Of a stretch of 64,000 nt of DNA, positions 8,664 through 64,000 are shown piece by piece (position 1 is the stretch's first letter; the number at the start of each line of letters is the position of its first letter). Below the pieces are notes generated by a model, which was not told the DNA's origin, ran no database searches, and was given only the letters and a program-made list of their open reading frames with translations. The translations under genes and the position numbers were made by a program. The DNA is taken from NCBI GenBank assembly GCA_947561395.2, contig OX387184.1, positions 41,468,766-41,532,765 of the forward strand, written 5' to 3'. The stretch comes from Buxus sempervirens. Lineage: Eukaryota; Streptophyta; Magnoliopsida; Buxales; Buxaceae.

Positions 8664-9560
8664 TTTGGACGACTTGATCATATATGGGTTGCTGAAGTTT
8701 TGAGATCCAAATCGGCTAGATCAGTGTTGTTTGGAGTGCAAAATTTGAATTAACAAGTAAATTGAGCTATAGGTTCGAATTTAGGTTGACTCATTGTAGT
8801 TCATAAGAATTGATCAAAAGTTATCAGATATGGAAAGCTGTAGATGAGGTATAACAATGTTAAAAATTATGTTTACAGTGGACGAAGGAAAATTTGGTTG
8901 AAATAGTTCAGATTTAGAAGAACATTTGAAGTAAGTAGCACCCTTACGAATTGATTTATGCATGAAATTTTGATTGAATGTATGGAGAATGCCACAAATG
9001 ATTATGATCAAGCTAAATGTTGATATTTAGAGATATTCAATGAAAATAATGGAACCGAATTATAGTTTTGTCAATTTATTATTTGATTTGGTAGGGAATC
9101 TTTGGACGACTTGATCATATATGGGTTGCTGAAGTTTTGAGATCCAAATCGGCTAGATCAGTGTTGTTTTGGAGTGCAAAAATTGAATTAAAAGGTAAAT
9201 TGAGCTATAGGTTCGAACTTAGGTTGAAGCATTGTAGTTCATAAGAATTGATCAAAAGGTATCAGATCTGGAAAGCTGTGGATGAGGTATAACAATGTTA
9301 AAATTATGTTTATAGTCGACAAAGGAAAATTTGGTTGAAATAGTTCAGATCTGGAAGAACAGAAGTCGAGGATCTGAATTGGAGCTCATTGGAAGTAAGT
9401 AGCACCCTTACGAATTGATTTATGCATGAAATTTTGATTGAAGGCATGGATAATGCCACAAATGATTATGATCAAGCTAAATGTTGATATTTAGAGATAT
9501 TAAATGAAAATAATGGATCCGAATTATAGTTCTGTCAATTTATTATTTGAATTAGTAGGA
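8664..9560 (+). repeat. Tandem duplication inside the 8038 element
   Basis: Copy 1 is about 8664-9100 and copy 2 about 9101-9560. Both begin TTTGGACGACTTGATCATAT and run to the AATT(A/G)GTAGG boundary. Copy 2 has a short extra segment near 9360-9392 and several substitutions, so the duplication is not recent. Confidence 0.92.
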
Positions 9561-43700: not shown

Positions 43701-46700
43701 ATGAATAATTTAAACTTTTAATCAAATAATTAGAATGAATGTTACGAATTAATTATCATGACATAACTATATTTGAAAATATCCACAATCAAAAGCAACA
43801 GAAAGATATAAAAACTTTCATGGTACAGATAAATCAAAAGCTTATTAATCCATGAGATCATGATAATATTTGGTGTATCTAAACGGAACATATTGGTTTT
43901 ATCATCATTTTTCACTCATATTGCCTTAATAACATGCTTGTTTAATAAAAGTATGAGCAGATTACCTCTCCAAGAGCCCCACAGAAGGACTTCCTTGGCC
44001 ATATTGCTGGAACAAGTACTTCACAATATCACCTATTAAAAGGTATGCAGCTATTGTTACCTTATATGACACTTAACTAGATATTGCATCAAGTATATAG
44101 AAGGAAATAATTCAAACATGATAAATGGTTGGGAGAACAAACAACAGGCTTGTATCAAAAGACCAGCCATCCCTCCCAAAAATTGGTCATTTATAAAGAT
44201 GCACTACCAACTTACTTATTTAGCAACGATGGATATAATTTCATTTAGTTGGTAGATTGCTCTTTTGAACATAATGTTTTAGATATTGTACAACCATGAC
44301 ATCATAACTGTATCATTCGTTTTTTATGGATCACAAGCAACCTTTCCTTGAATCGAATAGTTAAAATTAGCTTTGCACATTTTTGTTACGGTTATCTTTA
44401 TTATTGTTGAGCCTTTCCACAAAAAATCATGAAAGTGATCAAGTTTTTAAATCTTGGCTGGTATCAATACGATTTCCAGGATTTAAAACACTGGAAGTGA
44501 TAAGATTTATGTGTAAGCACCTATTTTTTGCACCCCTCTAAATGTCAGAAATGAAAACCCTAAAAGGCAGGTCAAACCCTAAGGAGCAAAATTTGACTTT
44601 CTGATCAAGCTTGAATTAACTGTCATACCCTATCTCAATGGATTAGAAATCCCGACACGGTTCCAACGCAACAGAATTTGCCAGAATCGGAGTCCACATG
44701 AAGAAGATATGAGCAGAACAATCCTAAGGGTAAAATTGTAAATAAATGCAGAAAGTCTGTCCACATGGCAAATGTGCAACCCACATTAGCCAAGTGGCAA
44801 ATTAAAGGAGAAAAGGACGAAATAGAAGTAAGACAAAACATAAAAGAAAATATCTTGGATTAAAATAATATTATTTCTTAAAATATCTTAATTTAATTAA
44901 TTAATTAAATCAAATATTCGGATTTTCTCATTAATCAGAAATCATGGCAAAATCCAACATCATTTCAGCCAAATAGGAGAAAGAAAACAAAAATCTAAAA
45001 AGATTCGTTTATAACCGAAATTAAATTTCGGTTATAAACAAAACAATGTATAACCGAAATTTAATTTCGATTCAAAGATTTTTTGTACAGATTCTTGTGT
45101 CAGACTGTTCATTGCAAATCTCTGACAAAATCTATTTGATTTGATATTTAAGGTGATAATTTTGGTCATGAACAATTTGGCTGTAGCCGAAATTGTATTT
45201 TGGCTATACACAAAAATGGTATAACCGAACTGAGATTTCGTTTATTTCCTTTTTGACTATAAAAGCCAAATCTCATCTCATTTGCAGGTTCAGACATTTT
45301 CTCTTCTCTACTCTCTCTCTCCTACGAACAGAGCTCCCTCCTAATCTTTCTCCTTCACTCTCTAAGGTCCTCTAACCCTTTCCAATCCTCATCAAACCAC
45401 TCCAAACCCACACTATTCTTGACTTTAACCAAGAAGAAGCGAAAAGGAGACCTTGGACTTGAAGAAGGAGGGTACCAATTGCTGCCTACGCAACAAGAGG
45501 TCTTCAAACACACTCAAAAAGCTCTTTCCCTTCCAAGGTGAGTCTTCTTCATCCCTTTTGTAGAACATATGTAAGATTCAAGGTAATAAGAGCATGCTTT
45601 AAGATAGTTGTTCTAAATGCAATGCTTACCTGGTTCCTCCTCTTCTACTTCTTCTCTTCTTTCTATATTTTACCCTCTCTCCCTTAAGGAAGAGCTCCCA
45701 TAGTAAGGGGAAGTGTTTGAATCAAGAGGGAGAGGATGAGAGACTCTGGCAAACTCAATCTAAAGTCTCATTTTAAGTATATTTTAGTGCTTCTTTGTTT
45801 TATTTATAAAGGAAGAGCATGTTCTTCCTCTTTCTCTATCCAATGTACCCCATAAAGCCCCCCACTTCCTTTCTTTACAAGCTTTCTAGTCCTTCTTAGC
45901 ACCTTAATTTATTATTGGTTACATGAGATGGGTTGAGTGTGATCATCGCTTTACATGAACAAAAAAGGTGATACACACACATTACAGTAGCTACATGCCT
46001 CTTTGCTCATTGATTCAAAAGCCTCTCATGGCATATTAACACACAAAAAAAGCATGACCACACCCACTCACATGCTTATTGTTCTAAGTGATGTCTAGCA
46101 TATCTCTAGTTTCCATGTGCACCCCATTTCACACACAAAGCATGCTAATATCTTCTTACTTGTGATTCATTTCTTGTCTCGTGCACACTCCATGCTTACA
46201 CCCACACACTAATATCATCTTTAAAGCATCTTAGACTATATTTTGACCATTTTAATGCTTGTTTGGTTATGTTGATTGGGTATGCTTCATGGATTGGCCG
46301 AATTAGGCCATGACAAAGGCCAATCAGGCCATCTCTTTTTCTTTTCTTATAGAGAGAAAAGGGATGTCATTAACAAAAAAATAGGGACATTTAAGGTCCC
46401 TGTTTTTCCACTTAAGTTTCAGCTCAAGTTGGGGGAGCAAGGCCCCTAAGCCTTGGTCCCCCTTTTCTTTGGATAAATCCATTAAATTAGTTTAATTAGG
46501 GCTAATACTCCAATCTTAGACCACTGTGGGCCTGCCCAGGGGCCCACAGTAATCCTAGTCATCCCCAAGAACCAATGAATCCATTCCATGTCCACATAAT
46601 GCAAAACTGTGATTTTCCATACTTGACCGAAAACTCAGTTCGGTCAAGCATACAACTGTTCATAGCCTAAATTGAATTTTGGCTATACATATTTTTCAGT

Positions 46701-49700
46701 ATGACCAAAATTGAATTTTGGTCATGAACAGTTATTGGGTTGACCGATCTGTCTTTTCGGTTCAACCTAGAGAAAACCAGAAATGCAATTTTCAGACCTT
46801 TTTGGTTACTTTAATCCCCTTTAATCAAAACTTAATTGAATCCAACAGGGTTTTGGGGTTTTCCCCTAACCCAAATGGGACTTGTGCCCTCCATGGCCCA
46901 AACTTAATACCGGTGGGCCTTCCAATAGGGCCCACCCATTCCTACCAACTCACTTAATTAAGCTAAGCAAGAGTTTACCTAATTAAAGGGCCATACCCTT
47001 TGAGGCCTAAATCAAAGCCCAATTTGTAGCATGTTTTTTAGGTTTAGATGGTTTGGCCGTGACTTAGGGCTTGGGCCTATCGGGCCCTATCTCTTTGAAG
47101 GGGAGCCCCACTCTTTAAACTAAGAAATGGAAGGGATACATATCCCTTATCCATAAAAATTTTGGGTTTCCTAACCCAAATCTAGGAGATGGGCCCCAAG
47201 CCCATCCCTTGTCCAATTGGAATCAAATCAAAACTAAGATAACAAAACTAAAGGAAACCACAGTGACGCCCACCTAAAAGGCCCCCAAATCATCAAGGCC
47301 CACTAGAAAGCATAAAATTCTATATTTAATCTTTTCAACCTTAACCTAATAATTAATTAAACAAACTTAACCAAATCCCTACGAAGCTTCTAGGGTCAAA
47401 CTAAAGGGCATATGGGCTGTCCCTTAGCCCATCTTGGGTTCCGCGGGCCTTCCAATGGGGTCCGCCAACCAGACAAAGATCACTTAATAAAGAAGATAAA
47501 ATCTGAACGGAAACTACACCACTTAAGTAGTCCCCACATAGACCTAATCAACGAGTGCATATCTATTTAAGACGGATGAGATAAAACGAAATGACTCATA
47601 ACCAGGATGACCTAGGAGACCCATCACCCGACGGGGCGAACCGAGATGTCTACGGACTTCCTTGAACCGTAACCGAGTACTTAACCGGAATCTCAAGCCG
47701 CAGACCACCTAATAGACAAACATTAGGCATCCGGGTGTCTATCTGCATCCCATCGAGCAGTGGCAACTCCCCATTTCCCCTACATCCTTTCCCGATCCCG
47801 AAAGCATACAATTCTTCGTGCTTTCACCGAATAACGCGCCAGGACATTTCCCTAAAGGAGGCAGACACACGTGCACCTCCCAGCAAAGGTTCAAACCGCG
47901 GATCGATGCGCGCGCATTATGTTTCAAATTATATAGGCAATAAGACCCCAAAAAGACATGGGAGCATACTGTGTTCAATTTCACTAGAATTTTGCCCGTG
48001 CTGGTGAAATTCTGCTTGCTACAGGGGATTCCAATTACATTAGGGGTTTAAAAAACCCTTTATTTCAACCTGCACAGGTGATATTAAATCTTGTGCCAGT
48101 CGAAATACAACCAATTTCGATGCATGGCATACCATGCAGAATATGTAAAAAGAAAATTGTTGAGACAGAGTAAAACTATAGAGCAGAGAGGCCTATGTGT
48201 GTGTGAGAGAGCGAAGGGATAAGGAGATGAAAAGGAAGAATGCAAAATCTATAAAAAAAAAATAGTTAACAAAGCGGACCAAACAAAAGAGAGCTAAAAA
48301 AGAGAAATATGGCTAAACACAGAGAGAAAGAGAAAAGAAATAAAGGGAGAGGACTGGGTGGTTATGTACCTATCTCACTCCTTGGATTGTACCTGCTTGC
48401 TTAGCATTGACTGAACACACAAATAGAGAAAGGGGGAGTAGGTGTGGGGTCATTGCTGACCCCTCCTCATTCTTTTCTAAGTGTCGGTCAAAAAGGGGAA
48501 CAAAAGAAGGAAGGAGTGGTGTTAGGTGTGTGTGTCTATATATATATATACTTATATAAATACACACACACACACACATGTATATATATATATACGTATA
48601 TATTTAATTAAAATACACAAATAATATAAAAATGTTGATAACATATATATAATTCATCAAAAAATATTTATATGTGCATATAATTAAAAAAATATATATT
48701 AATAATTAAACAAACAATCTATATATATATATATATAGAAATTCTTTCATATTTTATACAAATATATTTCGACTTGTTTTAATTTTTATTCTTTAAAATT
48801 TTCAATATATTTCAGCATGACGAAACAAGAAACACAACGGCACAAGCAACATTCCAGCAAAGCGACACTGAAACCGGCATGATGAGCTTTGGGGGAGAGA
48901 AAATTAAGTCTCACTTTTACTTTTGAGATCAAATCACTAAGTAATTAAAATGCCTCACAAGCTATTAAAACATAATTCAAATAATTTAACCATTTCTGTA
49001 CTATCAACATATTGAAAAATCAAATTATGCCCTATCATCAATTAATATTAAAAGGTAATCAAAAAGAAAGAATTAGACTCCATAAGACATTGAAAACTAA
49101 GTTAGTGATGAGTTGCAATGAAACAGGTAGACCAAGCCCTTGAAACTTGACAATGAAATAGGTAAAAAATTGTAAAATTTCAAAAGGGCTAAAAGAAGCA
49201 GATCTGTTAAGCCTAATAAATAAGATTTTGCTTTTAACATTCATATAAAACACAAAATAGTAAATACATATAAATATGAATATAATATATATGTGTGTGC
49301 ATGTGTGCATGTGCGTGTATGCTTGCGTGTGTGTCAAGAACCAGCAATTAATTGTTAAATATTGACAACACAGAGAATGATGACTTGAAAAATAGCACAT
49401 TTCAACATAAGACCGTGAAGTCATAACAATAATAATATAACTGCTAGTAAAAGATAAAAAGAGTACATAAAACCATGGAGGTTGATTGCTTACCACTTTC
49501 ATACATAGAAACGCCAGTATTTGGATCAACAAGGAAAGGAAATCTGCATGAAGTAATTTGTAAGTTTGAAAATATGCAAACAAGGGAGAGAGGGAGAGAG
49601 AGAGAGAGATCAGTTCAGGCTTTAAAGTACTTAATGATCCTTGGGCTGAATTTTGACACATTGCAACTAGATTGAGGAATGACAGCACAAGAGAAATATG

Positions 49701-59929: not shown

Positions 59930-60402
59930 CTAACGCAAAGTTAGCTAATGTATCCGCAACAATGTTTCCCTCCCGATAATAGTGGTGAAATTGGATAGAA
60001 GAGAATGAGTGACACAACACTTTAATTTCTGAAAGCAGTCCTTTGAGACGCCAAGGGTAGGTTGGGGTCGATGCAATCAATAGGCCAATGATAGTCTGAG
60101 AGTCTCCTTCTAGAAGAACATGCGAAAATCTTCTTGCAAGTGCCATTTTGATTCCTTCATCTACCGCGAGAGCTTCTGCATGAATCTACTTAACAAGCAA
60201 AGCCTCCGAGGAATTTCTCTTCTGCATTTTTGAAGACACCTCCAATTGCTGCTTTGTTACAAGACTTTGTCCAAGCTCCATCAACATTAAGCTTAATGAA
60301 AGGATGGAGAGGTCGTTGCCATGTAATGAAGGCCTGAAACTTCTGAATATTCTGAGCATGTGAATGTTTCCTTAACAAGTTGGAGTCCTCCTTGAGTCTC
60401 TG
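59930..60402 (-). pseudogene. LINE RNase H (RVT_3-type) domain
   Basis: It reads FIKLNVDGAWTKSCNKAAIG, VFKNAEEKFLGGF, then after a frame change ALARRFSHVLLEGDSQTIIG, FHHYYREGNIVADTLAN. The pattern D..G(A/S)W, E.DS and N..AD.LA is that of the RNase H found at the end of plant L1 LINEs. Frame is lost near 60190. Confidence 0.85.
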
Positions 60403-61015
60403 TGTAAGCACCCAAATTTTGATCAAACCAAAAAGAAAAGAAGAAGAAGAAGAAGAAGAAAACAAAAAGTGTGTGCAAAAAGACAGCAGAAAAATCAAAC
60501 CCTAAGGGGTCAAAAATTGACTTTTTGATCAAAAGAAAATTGGTCACCATGCCCTATCTCAATGGATAGAGAATCCCGACACGAGTCCAACGCAACCGAG
60601 TTTGCTGGAATCGGAGTCCGGATGAAGGTTCTGTGGGCCGGTCAAACTTGAGGGTGAGCCGAAAGTTGACTTTTTTCGAACCCCAAGCCAGGTGCTTAGC
60701 TCTATATCATTGGATAGAGAGCTCCGATACGAGTCTAACGCAATTGAGTTTGCTCAAATCGGAGTTCGGATGAGGGAGATATAAGTTGTCGAAGTTTCCA
60801 CGCAGCAAAACCGGAAACTGCACACGTAGCGAAGAAACTGCGCACGTGGCGATGAATGCAGTGAAATATCTCAGGGACTAAATCTCAAATATCCAAAAAT
60901 CATCAAATATCTCAGGGACTAAACCAAAATTCGCAGGGGGCAATTCGTAGATATCCAAAAGTGTCAAATCAGTCGAATCGGTCAAGTTGAGGGGCAAATC
61001 CGTAATTTTTCTATT

Positions 61016-61224
61016 TGTATCTGACCAAATATGCCGGATACACTTGCTCCTCTTCATATCCGAACTCAAATGTCGGATACAAAGATTTGCTCGGCGAGAT
61101 TTGCGCCGATTCGCCGACAAATTCGCGGCGGCATTTAATTTTCGAAATTATTATGTTTTGTATCCGATATAATATGCCGGATACAAAGGAAGTGTAGTGT
61201 ATCCGGCATTAAATGCCGGATACA
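61016..61224 (+). repeat. Hairpin cluster A': four 27-nt palindromes
   Basis: Units at 61016-61042, 61055-61081, 61159-61185 and 61198-61224, as two pairs each spaced exactly 39 nt. Stem TGTATCCGGCAT/ATGCCGGATACA; the last unit is a perfect palindrome around a single A. Confidence 0.92.
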
Positions 61225-62256
61225 TTAAGTTTTCTATAAAAAGGCACCAGCAACCCCATTTCCGGGGTTGGCTTCCTTTTGGTTGATTTCCACCCCTTCT
61301 CCCCCTTTGTCTCTGATCCGAAACCCCCCACTTTCACCCTTCCTTGACCCTTGAACCCCTAGAACCCCACCTAAAGGCCATCCTACCCCTCTCCACTCCT
61401 TTCCTCCACCCTTAGGAACTTGAAGGAGAAGAGGAAGCTACTGCCGCCGTGGGAAGGTGCTGCTCCGGCCCTTGTCATAGCTTCAAGGAGATCCTAGCCC
61501 ACCTCTCCAGGGTTTGTAATCCCCAAGGTAACGTTTCCTACGATCTTTTGTTCAATATAAGTCAAGATGAGCCTATTTCGAGCATATGTGGGTATCTTTT
61601 ATGTGTAGTGTCTCTTCTCCTTGTTTTTTTCTCTTCATGTTGAATATGGAAGCCCCATGATAAGGGGGAGATGCACGTGTGGTCCATGAGGGGTGAGGGA
61701 CCGTCTAAGCATGTATTCCATAGCCTTAATGGCATAATCTCGTTATTGATGTCCCATTTGCAAGAGGAAGCATGTTTCTTCCTATTTAGCCTTCTTCTGT
61801 ACTCCATGTAAACCCCCCTGTATTCCCTTCTCGTGGTTGCTCTCCTCTCTCCCCGTTACTACTTTTCGGCCGTCCGTGGTGGTGGTCACGAGACTTCCCT
61901 CTCGCAAGATCCAAGAGCCAAGGTTTGTGAAAGCGTGTGCATGTGTAAGCACCCACTTCGTTTAATTTGTGTTACTTTTTTGTGCTTGTTGTTTTGGGTG
62001 AAATTAGAAACCAGAATAGGGACTCCTTGGTCCCTGTTCAGTCATGGCATATGGTCCTAAACAGAAGAGGTAAACGCAATGCCTCTTCCCTTTCTTCTTC
62101 CGTGTGGTAAGAATCACCAAAAGTGACCAAGAGGAGGTCTTCCTCTCACTTGAACCACTGTGGGCTCACACAGGAGCCCACACAATCCCTGGAACACCCC
62201 AAGGAGCCTAAAAACCCAACCCCAATGCAAAAATCCGAGAAAAAAGGCTTCTGGGG

Positions 62257-62362
62257 GTTGATCCGGCAACTCAGGCTGGATCAACAGGAACCCATGTGTA
62301 GCCGGCTAAAGATGCCGGATACACTGAGCCTAGTGTGTAACCGGCATTTCAGGCCGGCTACA
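62257..62362 (+). repeat. Hairpin cluster B': three 27-nt palindromes at 39-nt period
   Basis: Units at 62258-62284, 62297-62323 and 62336-62362 with 12-nt linkers. Stems TTGATCCGGC/GCTGGATCAA, TGTAGCCGGC/GCCGGATACA and TGTAACCGGC/GCCGGCTACA. Confidence 0.92.
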
Positions 62363-63420
62363 CTGCCAAACTGCTTTTTTGCTATCTTTGTGATGATGTG
62401 CTGATTTTTTGGCTTGTTTGATCAATCCGGACGAACCAGAAGGGTTTCCGGGTCAACCGGAGACCCAAGATGGGACTTGGACCCCCGGTCCAATTGGACT
62501 CTCTGTGGGCCTTCCAACGGGGCCCACCACGCTCGACCAACTCGTTTGTTTTAAATAAACAAAATAAATTGAACCCAGTGGGCCAGGCCATGTGAGGCCC
62601 ACCAAAGCCCAAATTGAAGCATGCTTGCTAATCTATAGGTCTGGTTTGGCCGTGACTCGGGCTTGGGCCTATCGGGCCCATCTCCCTTCAAGGGAAGCCC
62701 ACAAAACCAAAGGATAGGGTCCAAAGCCCTAGTCCACTATTGCCTTGGGCTTTTAAGCCCAAATCTAGGTAATGGGCCCCAAGCCCATTCCTAGCCCATT
62801 TTGGCGCAAATAAATCAAGATAAATCAAAATCACCTGGTCACCATTGTGTGGCCCACCTAATGGGCCCGCAAGTCAATCCCAGACCAACTTTTGCATGGA
62901 ATTAAATTTAATCTCAAACTTGAACCATCAAATAAAATCAATTTACTTGAACCAAGCCCAAAGGGCCTCTCAGGTTTAGACTGAGGCCCGCCAGGGGATA
63001 TGTGGGCTTAACCGAGCCCACCAAGGAACCCGCAGACCTTCCAACGGGGCCTGCCCAATCAGACTCAGATCACTCTAAATTCAAAAAGATAAAAATCAAG
63101 TAAAGGGACCCACACCACTTTGGCGGTCCCGCCAAGACTTAAACAAGTAGAATGCTGGAATAGGAATCGGGTGAATGAGAGACCAAAGAATTGACTCAAA
63201 CCAGGAAAACCTATGGGACCCGTCCTCCAACGGGGTAGACTGGGGTGTCTACGGACTTCCCCAGACCGTAACCGAGACCCTACCTTAGAATCTCTAGCTG
63301 CAGACCAAGCCTAATAGAAAATCTAGGCACCCAGGTGTCCGCCTGCACCCCATCAGGCGGTGGCGACTCCAATTTCCCATTTTTACCCAGTGCGACCCGA
63401 AAACAGGTGCGCACACTCTG

Positions 63421-64000
63421 CATCATTGAACAAGCCGCCTCTAGGGATGGAACCTTAGCTTCCATTTTAAACAATGTCTTTTGTTTCCATAGCATTTGCT
63501 GCATCTGCTAGGAAGTTAGTTACATCAAATTGAGGGGGAAGATTCTGCATTGAGGTTAGATGAACAAACCAGTGGAAGAAAGAAGTTTGCGGTCCTTTCT
63601 CTTGGGCTGTTCCTCCCAACATCTTAAACCAAACATCCCTAGAGAAAGGGCATTTGGGCCACAAATGCTCAGTAGTTTCTTGATCAGTTGCACAAAAAAC
63701 ACAGGAGGCATCAATGTTAATGTTTCTGTTTCGCAAACACATAGCAGTAAGGAGACCATTGTTAAGACATTTCCACATGAAGAGTTTGATAACACCAGGA
63801 CAATTTAAATGCCAAATTTTGAGCCAAATGGGATTATTCTCCAAAGTAAGGCCACCCAGAAGAAGCCTATAAGTAGAAGCCACTGTAAACCTACCTGTAG
63901 CCGTAGCCATCCAATACCTTTTATCCTTCCCAAGCACAGAACTAATAGGAGTATTTAGAATTTTTTGAACTGTAACCAAATTCCAGTATCTATGAAGCAA
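63421..64000 (-). pseudogene. LINE reverse-transcriptase zinc-binding domain (zf-RVT)
   Basis: The frame open from the window edge to 63467 contains YWMATATGRFTVASTYRLLL, FMWKCLNNGLLT and the zinc-type CVFC...TEHLWPKCPFSRDVWFKML, diagnostic of the domain following RT in plant L1 LINEs. It ends at a TAA 44 bp before the solo LTR. Partial; its start is outside the window. Confidence 0.9.

Follow-up and report, generated by a model that had tools for sequence, protein, structure and literature searches.

The window analysed here, a stretch of 64,000 nucleotides of Buxus sempervirens contig OX387184.1 (in a genome of 676.5 Mb), carries two related long terminal repeats, LTR1 and LTR2. LTR2 is a solo element with the TG...CA ends and 5-bp target-site duplication of an LTR; around LTR1, whose limits are approximate, no clear target-site duplication was found by eye, and BLAST alignment between the two is confined to parts of them, with 956 columns at 68% and a further 134 at 81%. 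LTR2 contains seven 27-bp palindromic units arranged in two clusters: cluster A, two pairs before the TATA box with centre steps of 39, 104 and 39, and cluster B, three units about 1.1 kb downstream with steps of 39 and 39. The plan of LTR1 is A1, A2, a remnant of A3, A4 and A5, then B1 to B4. The features are as follows.

44510..47810, plus strand: LTR1, related LTR, limits approximate
45010..45036, no strand: LTR1 unit A1, 13/13 pairs
45049..45075, no strand: LTR1 unit A2, 10/13 pairs
45182..45208, no strand: LTR1 unit A4, 10/13 pairs; the preceding A3 has an internal deletion
45220..45246, no strand: LTR1 unit A5, spacer CTGAGAT, centre 25 bp before TATAAA at 45258
46622..46648, plus strand: LTR1 unit B1, loop AACTCAG (46632-46638), 10/13 pairs
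46661..46687, plus strand: LTR1 unit B2, 11/13 pairs
46700..46726, plus strand: LTR1 unit B3, 12/13 pairs
46739..46765, plus strand: LTR1 unit B4, 7/13 pairs, absent from the preliminary description
60398..60402, no strand: target-site duplication CTCTG, left of LTR2
60403..63415, plus strand: LTR2, solo LTR, TGTAAGC...GCGCACA
61016..61042, no strand: LTR2 unit A1, 9/13 pairs
61055..61081, no strand: LTR2 unit A2, 8/13 pairs
61159..61185, no strand: LTR2 unit A3, 11/13 pairs
61198..61224, no strand: LTR2 unit A4, 13/13 pairs, centre 24 bp before TATAAA
61235..61242, plus strand: TATA box of LTR2, TATAAAAA, predicted from sequence only
62258..62284, plus strand: LTR2 unit B1, loop AACTCAG (62268-62274)
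62297..62323, plus strand: LTR2 unit B2, stem position 5 unpaired (G/A)
62336..62362, plus strand: LTR2 unit B3, stem position 5 unpaired (A/C)
63416..63420, no strand: target-site duplication CTCTG, right of LTR2

The layout of LTR2 given in a preliminary description of this DNA, with 39-spaced pairs and a run of three, holds over 61016-62362, and the loop AACTCAG is indeed common to 46632-46638 and 62268-62274. In the best unit of LTR2, A4 (61198-61224), the two 13-bp arms are perfectly inverted and flank a single base. The alignment of A4 with a unit of LTR1, quoted in that description as TATAACCGAAATT against TGTATCCGGCATT, does contain four changes per arm, all matched in the opposite arm, but the units do not correspond, the first unit of LTR1 (45010-45036) being compared with the last promoter-side unit of LTR2. 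The true counterpart, unit B1 with its loop AACTCAG, does covary between the two LTRs. Measured against 300 dinucleotide shuffles, pairs of centres 39 apart with at least 8/13 pairs in both units numbered four in LTR2 (mean 0.08, maximum 3) and three in LTR1 (mean 0.23, maximum 3), so that LTR1 alone is weak on this count; odd-centred palindromes with at least 10/13 pairs numbered four in LTR2 (0.47, maximum 3) and eight in LTR1 (0.74, maximum 5), also against dinucleotide shuffles.

Judged by their ends, target-site duplication and primer-binding site, these LTRs belong to a group of the Ty3 type. In a related element, L048, the LTR end GGGTGCGCACA is followed by GCC and then by TGGCGACTCCACTGGGGA, which we take to be a tRNA primer-binding site of the Tat/Athila kind; a pattern containing this site matched 1199 genome places at up to two mismatches, and none in the control. 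The interior of L049 has a gag match (PF03732, with the related PF19259, Ty3_capsid), preceded by a 166-residue frame that is a low-complexity repeat. Neither gag nor pol was found in ten frames of L048, and the window's own Ty3 pol had no match in L048-L050, which are perhaps non-autonomous or decayed copies; a pol frame of the window had no match in a plasmid collection. The window's retrotransposon genes, and four plant proteins related to gag, accord with a plant host. No element-encoded DNA-binding protein came to light in 20 open frames, ten from L048 and ten from L049/L050, the other matches there, all with E above 0.04, being taken as chance. Further observations concern the structure of these elements. 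On the minus strand of L049 (6900-7950), before the gag frame, an imperfect palindrome of the form AACCTCC-GAAGT-GGCGGTT is matched 28 times in a row, the steps being chiefly 30, 38, 19 and 35 bases; L048 has six matches as well. The LTR start motif TGTGTAAGCACCCA is found again inside LTR2, at window positions 61942-61955, and TGTAAGCACCCA is present in one of 40 pieces of the LTR2 family, perhaps as the trace of an inserted LTR end.

Copies of both LTR types are abundant in the genome. We examined 40 copies of family 2, to which LTR2 itself belongs, and 40 of family 1, the window's own included, and the promoter array is present in LTR1 and in 78 further copies of the two families. Candidate places for cluster A number 3582 for family 2 and 881 for family 1 (40 scored in each). 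With up to three mismatches allowed, a 28-nt motif taken from the LTRs towards their 3' end occurs at 1099 places (control 1), and a B1-type pattern with mostly free outer bases at 9479 (control 2), 16 of the roughly 100 places listed for the latter being, by eye, other, non-palindromic repeats. Since these genome-wide counts settle what LTR1 alone leaves weak, the arrays are beyond chance. The non-palindromic repeats, of the type CCGTAAACTCAG..CGGTCC, fit the B1 pattern by its core only. By visual reading, units of this kind occur in 14 of 20 subfamily pieces selected, from the places of the 28-nt motif, as likely to contain cluster B (L110-L112, L117, L118, L120-L122 and L124-L129) and were not seen in the other six (L113-L116, L119 and L123). 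Among 12 cluster-A pieces an array was found in four (L136, L137, L139 and L140), a single unlike palindrome in one and nothing in seven, misses that are no proof of absence, as the position of cluster A in these pieces was guessed.

The step between units is nearly always 39 bp. Among 104 gaps within cluster A of the 40 family-2 copies, a length of 39 bp is found in 63, 143 in 28, 104 in 10 and some other value in three; the gap of 104 bp lies between the pairs, and that of 143 is 104 + 39 where A2 was not called. Cluster-B gaps of the same family are 39 bp in 37 of 39 cases and 78 in two, the B units being called in 23 of the 40 copies, some pieces of which stop short of cluster B; one such unit, in L040, looks spurious and is kept in the counts. 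Family-2 units were chosen by half-site similarity and at least 8/13 pairs, a rule that misses weak units. Unit number varies in whole 39-bp steps, as in the two or three units nearest the promoter. In a single copy, L042, cluster B has five units, every step being 39 bp. The last A unit lies 24 bp from TATAAA in 36 of 40 family-2 copies (62 bp in two, 33 in one, none in one), and in family 1 its distance to the TATA box is 25 bp in 25 copies of 40 and 24 bp in two; the family-1 remainder comprises one gap, one copy at 29 bp and 11 in which TATA[AT]A was not found at the right place. The same distance is 24, 24 and 25 bp in L140, L142 and L143; the 64 bp that separate the last called unit of L139 from its TATA box count against a fixed phase. 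Within a family, spacing and TATA distance may be plain inheritance, and it is the agreement between families that supports constraint.

Paired changes in the two arms occur in many units, and neither chance nor one recent duplication explains them. In the covariation search the core was fixed and the outer arms were left free, so that units were not picked for symmetry; the one restriction was at the first outer base, where the pattern barred G in the left arm and C in the right. The 17-nt core CCGAAAACTCAGTTCGG occurs at 53 genome places (control 0), and in these 241 of 265 outer cells are paired, against 153.6 (sd 7.8, maximum 182) in 2000 arm shuffles; reduced to 21 distinct sequences, 85 of 105 are paired against 56.2 (sd 4.5). 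One of eight perfect stems is present at 38 of the 53 places: TGTGA/TCACA at 13, TTTGC/GCAAA and CTTGA/TCAAG at six each, CTTAC/GTAAG at five, CATAA/TTATG at three, CTTGC/GCAAG and TGTAA/TTACA at two each and TGTAT/ATACA at one. For a further core, CCGAAATTnAATTTCGG, 50 of 723 places gave 212 of 250 paired cells against 169.8 (sd 4.7), and the 34 distinct sequences among these 50 gave 139 of 170 against 110.5 (sd 4.0). A separate covariation count of 31 distinct B1-type units, which include ten hand-picked ones, found 92.6% of cells paired where shuffles gave 73.1 (sd 1.5), and a covariation score of 0.510 where they gave 0.167 (sd 0.020), with partner-slid controls at or below 0.065. In these 31 units, neither pairs changed on both sides (7, shuffled 6.2) nor further pair types (15, shuffled 12.9) showed an excess over shuffles. 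The shuffles leave kinship between copies in place. The stem class GTGATCC/GGATCAC dominates the list of a 1827-place pattern (control 0).

The earlier proposal that the arms change together is thus borne out by genome-wide copies (241 of 265 against 153.6). It had also been suggested that uncompensated stem changes in additional copies would reduce the match to chance or recent duplication. Many subfamily differences are in fact compensated, with fixed exceptions, of which AATAACC/GGTTAAT and ATTAACC/GGTTAAG (one mismatch each) and CATATCC/GGATACA (two) are recurrent. In single old copies uncompensated changes are numerous, most of all at the CCG/CGG core, which is what C-to-T decay following insertion would produce.

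In each unit a spacer separates two half-sites in inverted orientation, each some 8-10 bp long and made up of five variable bases on the outside, CCG and about two more; the inverted core that units share is CCG-N11-CGG, repeated at the 39-bp step. In the 40 family-1 copies, outer-arm identity is 0.723 inside a unit against 0.530 between units of the same copy, the observed permutation statistic being 164.2 against a mean of 127.1 (sd 2.8, maximum 135.4); the test covers 227 units, 22 having been dropped (14 B units that duplicate the sequence of an A unit in their own copy, and eight misaligned B4 rows). Positions 6-8 of this family give 0.661 within and 0.654 between units, and positions 9-13 0.774 and 0.749. 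As the core is similar both within and between units and the outer arms only within, the whole array shares its core, and each unit has an outer stem of its own that is nevertheless mirrored. The resemblance of all stems within one LTR, asserted in the preliminary description, therefore holds for the core and fails for the outer five bases, which are unit-specific (0.72 inside against 0.53 between). Unit A2 of family 1 is an exception, with unmatched outer arms (0.35 within, 0.51 between), and in family 2, where one outer stem is common to nearly all A units, the comparison says little.

Where the symmetry ends is less sharply defined. At the edge of the 27-bp unit, pairing in family-2 cluster A drops sharply, position 1 standing at 0.93 and position 0, just outside, at 0.35, whereas in cluster B of that family it runs one base past the edge (0.81, then 0.76 at position 0, then 0.23), and slots A4 and A5 of family 1 stay paired beyond it. 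Because of cluster B and these family-1 slots, the edge is weak evidence.

The preliminary description took the matched changes as a sign of base pairing or of homogenisation of palindromic sites; the covariation stands, homogenisation alone fits it poorly and RNA pairing is not favoured. Hairpins in the element RNA (in its leader, and in U3 at its 3' end), acting for instance in packaging, dimerisation or translation with stems that pair while their sequence drifts, would account for the 92.6% pairing and the score of 0.510 against 0.167 in the 31 B1-type units, for the loop AACTCAG kept on changing stems and for predicted folding well below shuffles. That folding is strong on both strands (z -4.6 to -10.4), with no common direction, and the mismatches show no consistent excess of G.T over A.C: in the outer stems the G.T/A.C counts are 68/16 in A and 20/10 in B units of family 1, with 44 of the 68 coming from two slots (A2 position 4 and A3 position 2), against 3/22 in A and 1/32 in B units of family 2, the latter presumably transcribed. 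Strand-specific tolerance of G.U pairs was thus not seen, the direction differing between families. The loop is, moreover, inverted in the U3 array of some elements: in L140, L142 and L143 the last A unit has CTGAGTT, with AACTCAG in B1 of L142 and L143, and of 34 family-1 A5 units 16 have CTGAGTT and seven CTGAGAT, the latter being also the A5 spacer of LTR1, one base from the inverted B1 loop. AACTCAG itself is found in four of 16 family-1 B1 units, most others being one or two bases off, and the inverted loop in none of 144 family-2 A units. By eye, no antisense TATA box mirrored before B1 was seen in the two LTRs of the window. A duplex site is indifferent to orientation and an RNA loop is not, so the inverted loop speaks for DNA, and together with the lack of a consistent strand bias in the mismatches it leaves RNA pairing not favoured. 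Its absence from family-2 A units counts on the other side, as do two pieces taken as promoter-side, L136 and L137, in which the AACTCAG units are forward and no TATA box was found near. The near-constant TATA distance also sits poorly with hairpins, and no Rfam family reached its gathering score over 60300-63600; the two candidates there, snoR9 over B2-B3 (21.3 bits against 90, E 0.057) and ST7-AS1_2 (18 against 50), were taken as chance. Overall, loop orientation, mismatches and folding lean to DNA without proving it, and RNA hairpins as the role of the units are somewhat less likely, indeed improbable in our estimate.

The symmetry could also be mutational, if template switching at hairpins during reverse transcription copied one arm onto the other and selection acted only on the CCG core and the spacing. 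Such a process would explain why outer arms match within a unit and differ between units of one LTR, and symmetry past the 27-bp edge (family-2 B position 0, at 0.76, and family-1 A4 and A5) is what it would leave. It would also suit position 4 of the family-1 A5 unit, which is A-T in 17 of 34 and G-C in 16, with one A-A and neither G.T nor A.C as an intermediate. On a tree built from flanking DNA these states require 9 changes, against 11.2 when shuffled, and so do not form one clade; recombination between elements would equally explain their scatter. Arm copying should reach the inner arm first, however, and the inner positions 9-13 of family-2 A units are paired in only 0.64-0.92; 37 of 41 family-2 B units other than B1 lack a pair at stem position 5; and the drop from 0.93 to 0.35 at the edge of family-2 cluster A is likewise unexpected. 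In the family-1 A slots (38, 38, 31, 30 and 34 clean units of 40, units with indels being dropped), mismatches at positions 6-8, 68 G.T and 76 A.C, were left uncorrected in inserted copies. We regard this process as an unlikely source of the pattern as a whole, slightly more so than RNA hairpins. Far less probable again is plain growth of a functionless 39-bp minisatellite, amplified by slippage, with a palindrome present by chance. Unit number does vary in whole 39-bp steps, up to the five units of L042 cluster B, and family-1 units are barely better conserved than linkers (column conservation 0.788 against 0.759, a slight difference), but the 12-bp linkers of LTR2 (CTTGCTCCTCTT, AAGGAAGTGTAG, CAGGAACCCATG and CTGAGCCTAGTG) differ while the stems are alike, and the TATA distance common to two families is left unexplained, as are the compensated stem changes, so that covariation already contradicts it.

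We tentatively prefer, as a possible reading of the sequences, that the arrays are phased dyad-symmetric DNA sites for a putative dimeric factor in the regulatory part of the LTR. This factor, made by host or element, would read the CCG of each half-site and might bind, perhaps cooperatively, in rows set in fixed phase with one another and with the TATA box, thereby driving or protecting transcription of the LTR. Cluster A (2 + 2 or 3 units) lies upstream, ending 24-25 bp before the TATA box, and cluster B (usually three or four units), some 1.0-1.4 kb downstream, would be transcribed; in family 1 and in L140, L142 and L143, and not in family 2, the inverted spacer gives the two clusters a mirrored arrangement about the putative transcription start. 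One dimeric factor predicts one half-site in all units, and this is at odds with the identities found in family 1 (0.53 between against 0.72 within). For outer bases that vary from unit to unit but are mirrored inside each, two guesses can be offered, a different homodimer for each unit or a need for symmetric DNA shape. The constant AACTCAG loop on a changing stem also tells against dyad DNA sites, having the classical look of an RNA hairpin. A variant that we think rather unlikely, if worth keeping in sight, is that symmetry is itself selected, the units being DNA foldbacks or shape-read sites in which CCG alone is read, or else that each unit is bound by its own homodimer from one protein family. 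Were symmetry selected, a retrotransposon promoter would evolve by base-pair covariation, as structured RNA does; were each unit bound by a different homodimer, the array would amount to a per-unit code.

Several known systems resemble these arrays in part. Plant LTR retrotransposons carry tandem enhancer repeats in U3, such as the boxes of tobacco Tnt1, short motifs upstream of the TATA box whose number varies among subfamilies. The likeness lies in the short repeated motifs before a TATA box and their varying copy number; unlike these, the units described here are 27-bp palindromes with covarying arms, at a step that is nearly always 39 bp, and have a second array downstream of the promoter. 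Yeast Gal4 sites, CGG-N11-CCG, are dimer-bound upstream activating sites, and share with the present units the inverted triplets at N11 and the placing of several consecutive sites before a TATA box. Here the orientation is CCG-N11-CGG, the flanking bases covary, the host is a plant and the reading protein is only putative. In Arabidopsis, VANC proteins act against silencing through short target motifs in VANDAL transposons, which are comparable in that a changing DNA motif is repeated many times in a mobile element. VANDALs, however, are DNA transposons with a known element-encoded protein, whereas here one interior has gag and the other nothing.

Covariation is the standard proof of RNA structure, and it is strong here, where DNA sites fit at least as well. 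With 9479 places matching one B1-type pattern, any reader of these sites would face thousands of them. The natural stem variants at a constant core offer a system for telling apart symmetry, sequence and pairing as what is read, and could show whether a host or element factor follows LTR evolution. In the general LTR model of Benachenhou et al. 2013 (PMC3601003), LTRs have terminal short inverted repeats and a TATA box in U3, and residual conservation in long R regions is tied to stem-loops; the passages concerned describe no phased palindrome arrays in U3 of the kind found here. One title in the literature treats palindromes as insertion targets. A search of titles and abstract openings returned no phased or covarying palindromes in LTRs, most subscription journals lying outside its coverage.

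Two minor observations remain. Other palindromes, for example AGGGTTTCCGGGTCAACCGGAGACCCA, lie in the same LTR region (window positions 46378-46550 and 62441-62467) and recur in other subfamilies (L111, L112, L117 and L119), with changes that are apparently matched. Elsewhere in the genome (G000:C1:8476216-8568177), seven identical AATGACC...GGTTAAT sites follow one another about every 15.3 kb, suggesting that a large unit is repeated there in tandem.
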